DNA from: Pseudomonadota bacterium
GTDB lineage: Bacteria > Pseudomonadota > Gammaproteobacteria > Burkholderiales > SG8-39
Direction of reading: 5' to 3'
Length of the DNA: 64,000 nt
Assembly: GCA_021811085.1 (NCBI GenBank)
Contig: JAJZPQ010000012.1
Span: 19,429-83,428 of the forward strand
Shown piece after piece: positions 45,647 to 58,783 of the stretch. How positions within the stretch are numbered: position 1 is the stretch's first letter; every line of letters starts with the position of its first letter. The notes beneath the pieces were generated by a model. The model did not search any database. It was not told where the DNA came from and worked only from the letters and a program-made list of their open reading frames with translations. Both the position numbers and the translations under genes were made by a program.

Positions 45647-45726
45647 ACTGCTCGGACATCGGAATCGCTTCAATGTATCTGTGCCGGCACGCGCGGTTGC
45701 GCGCATACGGCCGGCAAGGAGCGTTT

Positions 45727-47622
45727 ATGGCCATCATCGGCATCGATCTCGGCACCTCGAATTCCGCCGCTGCGGTACTGCGCGGCGGGCGTCCGGTCAT
45801 CATTCCCAGCGCCGAAGGCATCAGCATCGGCGGCAAGGCCTTCCCCAGCTACGTTGCGTTGACGGCGGACGGCCAGATGCTGGTGGGCGAGCCGGCGCGG
45901 CGACAGGCCGCGGCTAACCCGGAAGGCACGGCCAGCGCGTTCAAGCGCAGGATGGGCCGGCGCGAAAGCATACGCCTGAGGGAGCGCGAGTATTCGCCGG
46001 AGCAGCTCTCGGCCTTCCTGCTGCAGAAAATCAAACGCGACGCGGAAGCTTTCCTGGGCGAGCCGGTGCAGAAAGCGGTCGTCACCGTGCCTGCGTATTT
46101 CGACGACAACCAGCGCGCCGCCACCAAGGACGCCTGCCGCATCGCCGGCCTGGAAGTAGTGCGCCTGGTCAACGAACCGACTGCGGCCTCGCTCGCCTAC
46201 GGCCTCGACCGCCTGGGCGAGGAACTGCGCATCGTGGTGATCGACCTCGGGGGCGGAACCCTGGATGTCACCATCATGGAATTCGGCAAAGGCGTGTTCG
46301 AGGTCAAAGCCACCAGCGGCGACACTCAACTCGGCGGCACCGACATGAATCAGCGCATTTTCGAGCACCTCGCCGAACGCTTCCAGATGTCTACCGGCAT
46401 CGATGTGCGCAACGACCGCAAGGCCGCCGCGCGCCTGATCGAAGCCGCCGAAGCCGCCAAGATCGAACTCACCACCAGCATGAGCACCCATATCAGCCTG
46501 CCCTATCTCGCTGCGGCGCAGGGCGAGCCGCGCCATCTGGAACTGGACCTCAATCGCACCGAACTCGAGCGCCTGGTGCGGCCGGTGATCGAGCGTTGCC
46601 GCGCCCCGGTGGAACAGGCCCTGCACGATGCCGGCATCGCCCCGCGCGACGTGGGGCGCGTGGTGTTCGTCGGCGGACCGACGCGTATGCCCGTGGTGCG
46701 CGCGTATTTCGAGGAGCTGTTCGGACGCAAGGCGGAGATGGGCGTGGACCCGATGGAATGCGTCGCCGCCGGCGCCGCGATTCAGGCCGGCGTGCTCGCG
46801 GGCGAAGTCGGCGGCATCGTGCTCGTGGACGTGACGCCGCTCACGCTGGGTGTGGAAACGCTGGGCGGCATCGCCACCGCGCTGATCGCGCGCAACACGC
46901 CGATCCCGGTCAAGCGCAGCGAGACGTTCACCACCGCTGCCGACATGCAGACCAGCGTCACCATCCATGTGTTCCAGGGCGAGCGGCCGATGGCGGGAGA
47001 CAACACCAGCCTGGGCGAATTCAATCTGGACGGTCTGCCGCCGGCGCCGCGCGGTATTCCCAAGATCGAAGTGAGCTTCGACATTGACTCCAACGGCATA
47101 CTCAGCGTTTCCGCACGCGATACGGCCAGCGGCAAATCGCAGTCCATCAGCATCAGCGGTTCCACCCGGCTGTCCGAGGAGGATAAGAAGCGCATGGTGC
47201 AGGACGCCGAGCGCTACGCCGACGCGGACAAGAAGCGGCGCGAGGATGCGGAAAAACTCAATGCCGCCGACGCCGCCTGCTACGAGGCCGAGAAAATGCT
47301 GGCGAACTTCGCCGACAAACTCACCGATGAGCTGAAGCGGCGCATCGAGAGCGCCGCGCGCGAGACCAAGGAGGCGCTGCTCAAGAAAGACGTGGCGCTC
47401 GCCAGCGAACGCGCCGAAGCGCTGAAGAAACTGCTGAAAGAGGCAGGAGCAGTGCTCTATGCGCAATCGGGACAGGCGCCGAAAAGCGGTCCGTATGCGG
47501 AAACGCGCTGGGATGGGCCGCAGCCACAGCCGAATGTGGGCGAGCCCGGCGGGCAGGCGCGCCCCAGCGGCTCCGGGCCGCGCGGCAAGGTGGTGGATGC
47601 CGAATACGAAGAGCACAAGTAA
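45727..47622 (+). CDS. dnaK: Hsp70 chaperone, DnaK-like (second copy type)
   Basis: A 631-aa protein from ATG 45727 (AAGGAG upstream). ATPase motifs: [103 protein letters not shown]. The substrate domain starts at [15 protein letters not shown], and the lid ends ...[12 protein letters not shown]. The [13 protein letters not shown] opening differs from canonical DnaK (GTTNS), typical of accessory DnaK2-type chaperones. It follows the suf operon and is paired with dnaJ. It is not HscA by its C-terminus. Confidence 0.92.
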
Positions 47623-47645
47623 GGCCGCGAACCGGGAGCGCCGCC

Positions 47646-48752
47646 ATTTCCGCAACTGCCCAGCGCGACTATTACGAGGTGCTAGGCGTCTCCAAAAACG
47701 CCGACGAGAAGGCGATCAAGGACGCTTTCCGCAATCTCGCCCTGAAATATCACCCGGACAGGAATAAGGAGCCAGGTGCGGAGGAGCGCTTCAAAGGCAT
47801 CGCCGAGGCCTATGCGGTTCTGTCCGACCCGAAGAAGCGCGCCGAATACGATGCGCGCGGATTCGCCGGTGTGGCCGGCTTCAGCAAGGAGGATTTGTTC
47901 GGCGGCATCAATTTCGAGGATATCTTCGGCGGCCTCAATTTCGATTTTGGAGGGTTCAGTCCGTTCGAAGGTTTTTTCCGCCGCCGCAGGGGTCCGCCGC
48001 GCGGCGCCAACATCGAAGTGGATCTTTTCGTTCCGCTGGAAAAAGTGGCCAGCGGCGGCGAGGAGAAGGTTCGTCTCGGTCGTCCGGCCGCCTGCGCGGC
48101 CTGCCATGGCACGGGCGCCGAAGGCGGGACCGCAGCGCGCACCTGCAAGCAATGCGGCGGCAGCGGCCGCATCACCCGCAGCCAGCAGGAAAAAAAAGAG
48201 CATGTCCTGATACAGCAGATCAGCACCTGCCCTGCCTGCCGCGGTCGCGGCAGCATCATCGACCGCCCCTGCCCGAAATGCGGCGGCAGCGGCGAAGTGG
48301 AGAAAGAAGAGGAACTCACGGTCAAAATCCCCCAAGGCGTAGAGGAAGGCATGGCGCTGCGCATTCCGGGCAAAGGGATGCCGAGCCCGGAGGCAGGCGG
48401 CACGACCGGAGATCTGTTCGTGGTCGTGCGCTCGCGGCGCGATCCGCGCTTTGAGCGCGCCGGGGCCGACCTGCTGCGCGAGGAAACCATCTCGCTCACC
48501 GATGCGGTGCTGGGCGCCACGCTGGAGGTGCCGACGCTGAGCGGTTCGGCCAGCGTCGGCATACCGCCCGGAACTCAGCCCGGCGCGGTATTGCGGCTCA
48601 AGGGAAAAGGTCTGCCCGAATTCGGCAATGCGCGCCATGGCGAACTGTACTTGCGCATTGAAGTCCGGGTGCCGGAGCGGCTTACGCGCGAAGAGCGCGA
48701 ACTGTACGAGCGGCTGCGCGCGCTCCAGCGTTCGAAGCCCGCAGCAGCATAG
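47646..48752 (+). CDS. dnaJ: DnaJ co-chaperone with probable ATT start
   Basis: J domain: [18 protein letters not shown]...[19 protein letters not shown] (HPD present); Gly/Phe-rich segment [20 protein letters not shown]; four CxxCxGxG zinc motifs ([32 protein letters not shown]); C-terminal client domains with [15 protein letters not shown]. The track starts at GTG 47679, which would remove RDYYE of the J-domain first helix. No ATG, GTG or TTG lies in frame between the dnaK stop and 47679. ATT at 47646 has GGGAG 7 bases upstream and gives [16 protein letters not shown], 368 aa. Confidence 0.9.
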
Positions 48753-50940: not shown

Positions 50941-51135
50941 GCCCCCCGCACCTTGGAGCGTTAATTTCGCCCTATGTGTGCTGGCGCACCGCGGCGCGAC
51001 CGTTGACGGCCTATGCTCATTCCGTGACTCAGCATGCAAGAGTCGATCTGGTCCCCTGCAGCGCCAACCGGTGCGGCAGTTGCTGCGTCAACCAAGGTGT
51101 CTTTTGATGATCAATTACTTAACTGGGGTAACACG

Positions 51136-51525
51136 ATGAAATTCGCGCAAATATTGGCGGTATTCGCGGCGCTCACGCTGTCGATCGGGAACGTTATGGC
51201 GGTTCCGCCGGGCAAGACGGTGGAGTTTGCCAGCCCCATGGGCAAGGTGACATTCGATGGCAAGGCACATGCGGACAAAGGCTTGAAATGCGCCGACTGC
51301 CACAGCAAGCCCAAGCTGTTCGAAATGAAAAAAGGCGGCGACAAGATCAACATGGCTGCAATGAACGACGGCAAGTTCTGCGGCACCTGCCATGACGGCA
51401 ACAAGGCTTTCAGCGTCAAGGCGCCGGACAGTTGCGTGAAATGCCACAAGAAGGATGACGCAGGCGCGGCCGGCGGCGGCGGCGGCGGCGGAACCGGGGG
51501 CAAAGGCGACGCGCCGAAGAATTAA
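51136..51525 (+). CDS. Small periplasmic triheme cytochrome (c7-type)
   Basis: A 129-aa protein from ATG 51136. The signal peptide is MKFAQILAVFAALTLSIGNVMA. Three haem c motifs follow: CADCH, CGTCH and CVKCH. Extra His residues (HADKGLKCADCH) could provide distal ligands, as in c7 cytochromes. The C-terminus is a flexible Gly-rich tail (GGGGGGGTGGKGDAPKN). It probably shuttles electrons in the periplasm. Partner unknown; followed by a clear terminator, so it is monocistronic. Confidence 0.9.
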   Translation: MKFAQILAVFAALTLSIGNVMAVPPGKTVEFASPMGKVTFDGKAHADKGLKCADCHSKPKLFEMKKGGDKINMAAMNDGKFCGTCHDGNKAFSVKAPDSCVKCHKKDDAGAAGGGGGGGTGGKGDAPKN

Positions 51526-56707: not shown

Positions 56708-58783
56708 TCAGTAGCGCGAATCCGCCGGCTTCTTGTCCTTGGGCCAATCCTTGACCTTGTCCGGGTAATCCGGGCGCGGCTGGTGCGTGAAATACTCCGC
56801 GACATCCACGGCCTCCTGCTCCGACAGCCCGCCTTGCCCCAGCGGGAATTTCTCCTGGAACCCGACCGGCATATTGCGTTTGACAAAGGCCGCCGCGGTA
56901 TAGGTGCGCGCCATGCCGGCGCCGATGTTGAACGAATCATCGCCCCACAGCGCCGGGTAGATGACGCGGCCGTCGGCCTGCTTCAGTCCTTCGCCGTCCT
57001 TGCCGTGGCACACCGCGCACTGCGCCGAGTACACCTGTTTGCCGTTTTCCAAATTGGGCTTGATCGCCATATCCACCTTGCCCACGCCGCGCCCGGCGAC
57101 TTTGTCCTGCGGCTTGGTTTCCTTTTTCATCCAATCGAAATACGCCACCATGGCTTTCATGTCGGCTGAATCCGCAGGCAGCGGCTTGCCGTGCATGGAG
57201 CGCCGGAAGCAGCCATTGATGCGGTCCTCGAGCGTAATGACCCGGCCGGCGCGCGGGGCGTAGCTGGGGAAGAAGGCCGATATGCCGACAAAGGGCGATC
57301 CATCCGCGACGGTACCCGCGTTGAGATGGCAGCTGGTGCAGTTCAGGGAGTTGCCGACGTACTGCGGCAGGAGCGCCTTGGTCTCCAGATGCAGGCGCAT
57401 GCCGCGAACCAGCTGCCCGGCATTGGCGCTGGCGAGCATGTCCGCCAGACGCGGCGTCTCGAATTTGGAGGAATCGGCGGTCTTGGGATCGAGCTGTGCG
57501 CGCATCTTCTTCACCTGAGACGCGCTCACCGGTTCGGCGCCATTGTCCCAACTGCTGCGCACGAAGCTCAGGATTTCAGCCAGTTCCTGATCCGACAGCC
57601 GGGCAAAGGCCGGCATGGTGTAGACGCGCGGATGCGCGGCGGTTTCCGCCGTTTTCCAGCCGGTCAGAGCGATATGCAGCAAGGTGGCCGGATCGGCGGC
57701 CGGAACGGTCGGGTTCCGCTCCAGCGCGGGAAAGACCCCTTTTACCCCTGCGCCGTCCTGGCGATGGCAATCGACACAGAATTGCACATAACCCAGACCG
57801 CCGCGGGTCGTAAACAGATTGGCGGGAATCGCCGCAGCAACGGCGCGCACCGGCACCGCCGGCATGGGCAGATCGTGCTCGCCCGGCGGCAGCGAATTCA
57901 AATAGGTGGCGATGGCCGTCAAGTCGGCATCGGCAAAGTGCTGGGTGCTGAGATGAATTACCTCCGCCATATTGCCGGAGACCGTGGCAAAGCGATTTTG
58001 TCCCGTTTTCAGCAGCAGGGCGGTGTCCTCCACCGCCCATAAATTGCGCAGGCTGAGCGCGCGCCACGCTTCCACCGTTTCGCCGGCGAGATAGTATTTG
58101 CCATTGGAGCCTGCGTCGCTCATGGCCTTCTCCTGGAACGCAATACCGCGCGGCGTATGGCAGGAACCGCAATGCGCCAAGCCTTGCACCAGATAGGCGC
58201 CCCGGTTCCAGACGGCATCCTTGCCCGCGTCAGGCGTGAAAGGCGCATCGTCCAGGAACGCCCAATTCCAGAACGACAAGCCCCAACGCATGCTGAACGG
58301 CCAGCGCATCTGCGCCGGCTTGTTGGGCTGATTGACCGGTGCCACACCCTGCATCAGATAGGCATACAAGGCGCGCATGTCGTCTTCGCTTATCCTGGCG
58401 TAGGAGGGATACGGCATGGCCGGGTACAGGTTGTGCCCGTCCGCGGCCACGCCCCTGCGCATGGCCTGATCAAATTGCGCAAAGGTATATTTGCCGATGC
58501 CGGTTTTGGCGTCCGGGGTAATGTTGGTCGAATAAACCGTGCCCAGGGGCGTCGTAAGCTCGCGTCCGCCCGCCATCGCCGGCCCGGCCGTATGGCAGGC
58601 GACGCAATCGCCTAATTGCGCCACATATTGGCCGCGCTCGATCAACGCTGATCCCTTAGCGGAAGACGCAGGAGCCGGTACAGCGATATTGGTATTGACC
58701 GGTGCCAGGTCAGCGGCCAGAGCGCTATGGCCGAAAGACAGCGACACGCCAAGAATGGCGAGAGGCAATCGGGCGAGATCCAT
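56708..58783 (-). CDS. Five-heme fusion cytochrome: alcohol-dehydrogenase-type triheme c plus TsdA-like diheme domain
   Basis: A 691-aa exported protein (signal peptide to about residue 23, FGHSALAAD). Haem motifs CVACH (60-64), CGSCH (205-209) and CVDCH (336-340) are spaced as in the triheme subunit of PQQ alcohol/aldehyde dehydrogenases. Residues about 445-670 resemble thiosulfate dehydrogenase TsdA: CTSCH (482-486), FFPSYAPRAGRVITLEDRINGCFRRSM with Cys525 where TsdA has its haem-ligand Cys, and CAVCH (589-593). Met638 in KRNMP is a possible distal ligand. Single continuous frame. It may oxidise thiosulfate or pass electrons between a dehydrogenase and c cytochromes. Confidence 0.88.
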   Translation of the reverse strand: MDLARLPLAILGVSLSFGHSALAADLAPVNTNIAVPAPASSAKGSALIERGQYVAQLGDCVACHTAGPAMAGGRELTTPLGTVYSTNITPDAKTGIGKYTFAQFDQAMRRGVAADGHNLYPAMPYPSYARISEDDMRALYAYLMQGVAPVNQPNKPAQMRWPFSMRWGLSFWNWAFLDDAPFTPDAGKDAVWNRGAYLVQGLAHCGSCHTPRGIAFQEKAMSDAGSNGKYYLAGETVEAWRALSLRNLWAVEDTALLLKTGQNRFATVSGNMAEVIHLSTQHFADADLTAIATYLNSLPPGEHDLPMPAVPVRAVAAAIPANLFTTRGGLGYVQFCVDCHRQDGAGVKGVFPALERNPTVPAADPATLLHIALTGWKTAETAAHPRVYTMPAFARLSDQELAEILSFVRSSWDNGAEPVSASQVKKMRAQLDPKTADSSKFETPRLADMLASANAGQLVRGMRLHLETKALLPQYVGNSLNCTSCHLNAGTVADGSPFVGISAFFPSYAPRAGRVITLEDRINGCFRRSMHGKPLPADSADMKAMVAYFDWMKKETKPQDKVAGRGVGKVDMAIKPNLENGKQVYSAQCAVCHGKDGEGLKQADGRVIYPALWGDDSFNIGAGMARTYTAAAFVKRNMPVGFQEKFPLGQGGLSEQEAVDVAEYFTHQPRPDYPDKVKDWPKDKKPADSRY

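Follow-up and report, generated by a model that had tools for sequence, protein, structure and literature searches.

A predicted five-haem protein joining an alcohol-dehydrogenase-type triheme cytochrome to a complete TsdA recurs in Proteobacteria

Many heterotrophs produce or use tetrathionate, and to our knowledge little is known of how TsdA enzymes are coupled to respiration other than through TsdB. One gene in the 64,000-nucleotide stretch of DNA analysed here (the window) raises the question of whether a TsdA may carry its electron partner within the same polypeptide. Public records label genes of this kind merely 'c-type cytochrome' or 'cytochrome C'. The minus strand from 58783 to 56708 is occupied by one ORF of 691 aa, starting with ATG at 58783, ending with the stop at 56708 and preceded by AAGGAG 7 bases upstream of the ATG. 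The original prediction had described this uninterrupted frame and left its strand unstated; the frame is confirmed. The most hydrophobic 19-mer of the protein (residues 6–24) lies near its N-terminus, and five CXXCH motifs are found at residues 60, 205, 336, 482 and 589. The features of the gene are as follows.

56708..58783, minus strand: five-haem fusion gene (signal peptide, ADH-type triheme cytochrome and TsdA), 691 aa
58791..58796, minus strand: Shine-Dalgarno sequence AAGGAG before the ATG at 58783
58715..58783, minus strand: predicted Sec signal peptide, residues 1–23 (…HSALA/AD), from the sequence itself
57485..58660, minus strand: ADH-subunit-II-type triheme module, residues 42–433, with CXXCH at 60, 205 and 336 and M123, M272 and M390
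56747..57430, minus strand: TsdA diheme catalytic module, residues 452–679, with CXXCH at 482 and 589, C525, R511/R521/S529 and N637-M638
57209..57223, minus strand: RINGC motif, residues 521–525, with the putative catalytic Cys525
56825..56866, minus strand: residues 640–653 (…VGFQEKFPLGQGGL…), the segment past the haem-2 Met

The C-terminal half belongs to the SoxA/TsdA sequence family. Residues 452–679 match TsdA of Allochromatium vinosum (4wqc, E 3.7e-53) and TsdBA of Marichromatium purpuratum (5lo9, E 1.7e-35), and Pfam SoxA-TsdA_cyt-c (PF21342) matches residues 481–549 with 55.2 bits against a cut-off of 27. This match, together with the TsdA residues described below, rules out that the C-terminal part is a plain cytochrome c, the outcome that would have spoken against the proposed TsdA-like diheme module. 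The cysteine ligand expected at Cys525 is found as well: it aligns with the cysteine haem ligand (catalytic Cys) of A. vinosum TsdA (RIGDC/RINGC). Counted along the alignment, Arg511, Arg521, Ser529, Cys525, Gly623 and Arg626 correspond to Arg109, Arg119, Ser127, Cys123, Gly221 and Arg224 of that enzyme, and all six are invariant among 43 aligned fusion homologues. In A. vinosum TsdA Cys123, Arg109, Arg119, Ser127, the nearby Arg224 and the backbone of Gly221 (precursor numbering) bind substrate or ligate haem (PMC4423706), and substitution of the Cys ligand nearly abolishes the activity of Campylobacter jejuni TsdA (PMC5146829). By alignment, haem 1 of the fusion would have an axial Cys ligand and a substrate site of the Arg/Arg/Ser type.

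The second haem of this half has a conserved Met ligand, M638, also invariant in the 43 fusions. Where A. vinosum has Lys208, which ligates haem 2 in its oxidised state, the fusion has Asn637; the engineered variant K208N (4wqc) has Asn there too. Identity to the A. vinosum enzyme (4v2k, 4wq7) is ~41% over the whole TsdA half with identical catalytic residues, but the latter is free-standing. A closely related arrangement is known from TsdBA of M. purpuratum, in which an N-terminal electron-accepting cytochrome likewise precedes a C-terminal TsdA with a Cys-ligated catalytic haem and Asn-Met at haem 2. There, however, the acceptor is the diheme TsdB, whereas the fusion has a triheme ADH-type arm of ~390 aa with three CXXCH motifs. 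The TsdA half also forms a subfamily separate from that of M. purpuratum TsdBA, with an insert past the haem-2 Met: segment 640–653 exceeds that of the aligned lone TsdAs by ~7 residues and occurs in every aligned fusion.

The N-terminal half is of a different type, a triheme cytochrome normally used by the dehydrogenases of vinegar bacteria. Residues 42–433 match the cytochrome subunit of membrane-bound quinoprotein ADH (8gy2_B, E 5.8e-97), and further matches are found among the cytochrome subunits of glucose and fructose dehydrogenases (8hdd_B, E 7e-87; 7w2j_C, E 3e-76). The similarity is full-length, the three CXXCH motifs and the candidate Met ligands M123, M272 and M390 follow the order of the ADH/FDH family, and the three Met residues are invariant in the 43 fusions. 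The proposal that these haems are spaced as in cytochrome subunits of PQQ dehydrogenases is thereby supported, and the two halves are placed in two distinct families. ADH subunit II reduces ubiquinone (PMC9171043), and by analogy a contact of the arm with quinone is plausible. The similarity ends at residue 439 of 478 in 8gy2_B and 453 of 486 in 7w2j_C, where TsdA comes next. In the alignments nothing in the fusion corresponds to the C-terminal tail of the ADH/FDH subunits (~33–39 residues), which is hydrophobic in FDH. Since TsdA, the presumed catalytic half, starts in place of this tail, the contact with membrane and quinone is not assured. A Trp/Phe-rich hydrophobic segment of the arm, PFSMRWGLSFWNWAFL, with invariant W167, W172 and F176, could touch the membrane. 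The ADH/FDH cytochromes also differ in serving a PQQ or FAD large subunit: as originally predicted, no PQQ, GMC, FAD or Mo dehydrogenase large subunit was found among the window ORFs scanned, and the annotated plasmid records show no dehydrogenase large subunit next to the fusion.

Predicted structures agree with these assignments. AlphaFold models calculated on the fusion family, without haem, are of moderate confidence only (pLDDT 65.8, pTM 0.56), and the same holds for the TsdA half (pLDDT 67.4, pTM 0.63). In a Foldseek search the full model has its best match in 8gy2_B (E 2.5e-25), followed by other ADH/FDH-type subunits and TsdA 4wqc (1.7e-13), and the TsdA half alone retrieves only TsdA/TsdBA at E <= 1e-3. 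With five of five haem motifs, the Met ligand candidates and the TsdA active-site residues invariant in the 43 aligned homologues, it is confirmed at the level of sequence that one predicted protein joins an ADH-subunit-II-type triheme cytochrome to a complete TsdA.

The same architecture occurs elsewhere, much too often for chance. Species genomes and a plasmid collection, scanned in one pass, contain another 63 fusions of full or almost full length, 57 of them in genome contigs and 6 on plasmids, from alpha-, beta- and gammaproteobacteria. The hosts of the former include Rhodoferax, Zoogloea, Azospira, Pseudomonas, Cupriavidus, Delftia, Massilia, Tepidiphilus, Methylobacter and Rhodopseudomonas, with the complete chromosome of Pseudomonas protegens FD6 (L035) among them; the plasmids are those of Ideonella, Rhizobium, C. 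metallidurans (pMOL30), Thioclava (two) and Burkholderia. In an even sample of the phylum 5 of 399 genomes carry the fusion, the window genome included (4 further), i.e. ~1% of the sampled Pseudomonadota species, and none was added by an even sample of the class. In a sister species of the window genome, a C-terminal piece with 82% identity lies at the end of a contig. In L100 an ADH-type triheme cytochrome sits within a stop-to-stop frame of 712 aa that has ~290 additional residues at the N-terminus and might be another fusion or just a long frame.

Two Paracoccus plasmids carry the halves as separate genes with a 4-bp overlap. In quick trees, calculated without bootstrap and containing some long branches, TsdA sequences from fusions and from the split pairs form one group (support 98), but the split arm groups with other ADH cytochromes (97), apart from the fused arms, which form a group of their own (98). 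This leaves two readings, a twofold origin of the pairing or an exchange of the arm, and either one points to functional coupling of the two halves.

In the window the gene is preceded, on the opposite strand, by an RlpA-like gene and followed by genes for a small PAS-domain protein and a metallo-beta-lactamase-fold protein; no sulfur gene adjoins it there. Elsewhere, genes for a two-component system of the type that senses tetrathionate or thiosulfate recur beside the fusion. A TtrS-type kinase with a PhnD-like sensor domain is found near the fusion in 19 of 65 loci and a TtrR-type regulator in 20 of 65 (~30%). Such loci span Alphaproteobacteria to beta- and gammaproteobacteria; the window fusion itself has no adjacent TtrSR. 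These recurrent neighbours and the split pair of Paracoccus lend weight to the original idea of a fused electron-transfer module. The TtrA/B/C/S/R matches score below the NCBIfam equivalog cut-offs, therefore the genes are named Ttr-type here. As TtrS homologues also include the thiosulfate sensor ThsS (PMC5408782), the signal sensed by the TtrSR-type pair is not proven. Two loci that group with the window protein (L013 and L014; the TsdA half of L013 is 93% identical) have ttrB-ttrC-ttrA-type genes beside the fusion as well, and loci of the Zoogloea/Azospira type have the order ttrSR-fusion-tsdB-tsdA.

A close parallel is the locus ttrRS-ttrBCA-tsdBA of Vibrio parahaemolyticus, where TtrRS controls both the reductive ttrBCA and the oxidative tsdBA, whose product oxidises thiosulfate (PMC11293645). 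TtrSR-type sensing combined with a Tsd enzyme is common to both, and in L013 and L014 so are the ttrBCA-type genes; the difference is that tsdBA is swapped for the ADH-arm fusion. The Vibrio TtrR box GTGG-N4-CCAC is absent upstream of the window gene, although this is the Vibrio consensus and may not be that of the present group. Matches to GTGGCCTGCCAC in some relatives are trivial, since they fall within the coding region, where the first haem motif is encoded.

Several further arrangements were observed. Downstream of the fusion, at ~0.7–1 kb, the loci L020, L023, L024, L026-L030, L051, L061, L064 and L069 carry genes for a TsdB-like diheme cytochrome and for another TsdA, a lone one, so that ttrSR-linked clusters with fusion and tsdB-tsdA hold two TsdA enzymes with different electron partners. 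In seven Pseudomonas loci (L031, L032, L035, L037-L039 and L063) a gene for an ArsR-rhodanese regulator is located ~215 bp upstream of the fusion; this is another sulfur-related neighbour, and persulfide-responsive control is possible there. The window genome has a ttrSR and ttrBCA-type cluster for tetrathionate respiration near an end of contig C14 (L090:5806-13370), as well as two lone TsdAs (L091, L092) and a probable SoxA-like protein (C104); all of these lie on contigs other than that of the fusion.

Leaving the direction of catalysis aside, the protein is quite probably a bidirectional periplasmic five-haem thiosulfate/tetrathionate oxidoreductase in which a covalent ADH-type arm takes the place of TsdB. 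The TsdA half would interconvert two thiosulfate and tetrathionate plus two electrons at the His/Cys-ligated haem (CXXCH 482–486, Cys525). Electrons would pass via the His/Met haem 2 (CXXCH 589–593, Met638) into the attached triheme arm, which, being of the ADH/FDH/gluconate-dehydrogenase type, would replace TsdB and connect the protein with either the quinone or the cytochrome c pool. How electrons travel, where the respiratory chain is contacted and which way catalysis runs are what we infer from these comparisons.

TsdA enzymes run in both directions. For the fusion we lean slightly to thiosulfate oxidation in vivo, at about even chances, since TsdB and those ADH-type arms that have been characterised accept electrons, the sole tested Tsd enzyme from a ttrRS-ttrBCA neighbourhood is the oxidative one and many hosts are aerobes. 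The same enzyme could instead serve chiefly to reduce tetrathionate with electrons from quinol (or cytochrome c), as a single-chain alternative to TtrBCA with the route quinol, triheme arm, TsdA haem 2, haem 1 and tetrathionate; we put the chances of this somewhat below even. The TtrSR-type genes adjoining ~30% of the loci argue for it, as does the Zoogloea/Azospira-type order, in which the fusion stands where Vibrio has ttrBCA (PMC11293645). The neighbourhood is nevertheless not decisive, because in L013 and L014 the fusion stands in the place of tsdBA, and TtrBCA-type genes are already present in these two loci and in the window genome. Asn-Met at haem 2 resembles Asn254/Met255 of the reductase-adapted TsdA of C. 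jejuni (PMC5146829), an unfused tetrathionate reductase compared here without direct alignment. As a marker of a reductase this pair was rejected, since M. purpuratum TsdBA and lone TsdAs have it too, and it says nothing on direction. Transfer from ubiquinol to tetrathionate would be downhill if the arm contacts quinone. Against reduction stands the aerobic life of many hosts; for Pseudomonas, Massilia, Cupriavidus and Delftia, aerobes all, we know of no tetrathionate respiration.

A direct thiosulfate:ubiquinone oxidoreductase, whose ADH-type arm would reduce quinone as in alcohol dehydrogenase, would have a functional (not sequence) analogue in the archaeal DoxDA. It is consistent with the ubiquinone-reducing activity of the arm family (PMC9171043), with the strong similarity across ~390 residues and with the aromatic segment that could reach the membrane. 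We regard it as rather unlikely: the C-terminal tail of the ADH/FDH subunits is absent and, at +198 mV for the thiosulfate/tetrathionate couple (PMC9562282), oxidation with ubiquinone as acceptor would be uphill under standard conditions, unless tetrathionate is very low. The broader proposal is of one polypeptide, soluble or peripheral, that directly connects the ubiquinone pool with thiosulfate/tetrathionate (as quinol:tetrathionate reductase or thiosulfate:quinone reductase), is switched by a TtrSR-type system and is partly spread by plasmids across Proteobacteria; we regard it as doubtful. If true, it would constitute a cofactor-simple alternative to the molybdenum enzyme TtrABC and to TsdA/TsdB.

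It is improbable that the protein is an electron-transfer cytochrome only, i.e. a five-haem periplasmic shuttle or a subunit of an unlinked dehydrogenase with a non-catalytic TsdA half. Multihaem shuttles are common and the lack of an adjoining sulfur gene in the window would fit, but the TsdA catalytic residues are invariant in all 43 fusions, and conservation is highest in the TsdA half (mean identity to the window protein 80%, against 68–76% for the arm domains). An assembly or frameshift artefact merging two adjacent genes is refuted, despite the 148-contig draft from which the window comes and a chimera-like case among the relatives, because the fusion recurs with a conserved junction in 63 other copies from independent assemblies, including isolates, a complete chromosome and plasmids. 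The chimera-like case is a Magnetospirillum MAG (L072:6825-8687), where a fusion-type TsdA half is in frame with a protoglobin-MCP chemoreceptor; the joined gene is likely an assembly chimera, since a cytoplasmic receptor would not receive haem c.

Searches of open-access papers gave no description of an ADH-type/TsdA fusion. As far as these go, TsdA with an ADH-type arm is undescribed; the parts and the N-terminal fusion of an acceptor to TsdA (TsdBA) are already known. A conserved fusion names the electron partner of TsdA without guesswork, and offers one purifiable protein in which the whole path from substrate through five haems to the redox pool could be measured. The putative oxidoreductase also illustrates how a modular arm otherwise employed in sugar and alcohol oxidation may be reused for inorganic sulfur, and annotators gain a way to recognise the gene behind its uninformative label.

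Two other genes of the window deserve mention. A small triheme c7-type cytochrome is encoded on the plus strand at 51034-51525, ~5 kb from the fusion; it matches the NCBIfam 'nanowire' triheme domain TIGR04257 with 72 bits (cut-off 40) and is a possible periplasmic electron carrier. On the minus strand at 45673-47655, antisense to dnaK (HSP70, plus strand), a 661-aa frame matches Pfam PF10712 'NAD-specific glutamate dehydrogenase' with E 1e-105; this family appears to rest on antisense-of-dnaK frames.
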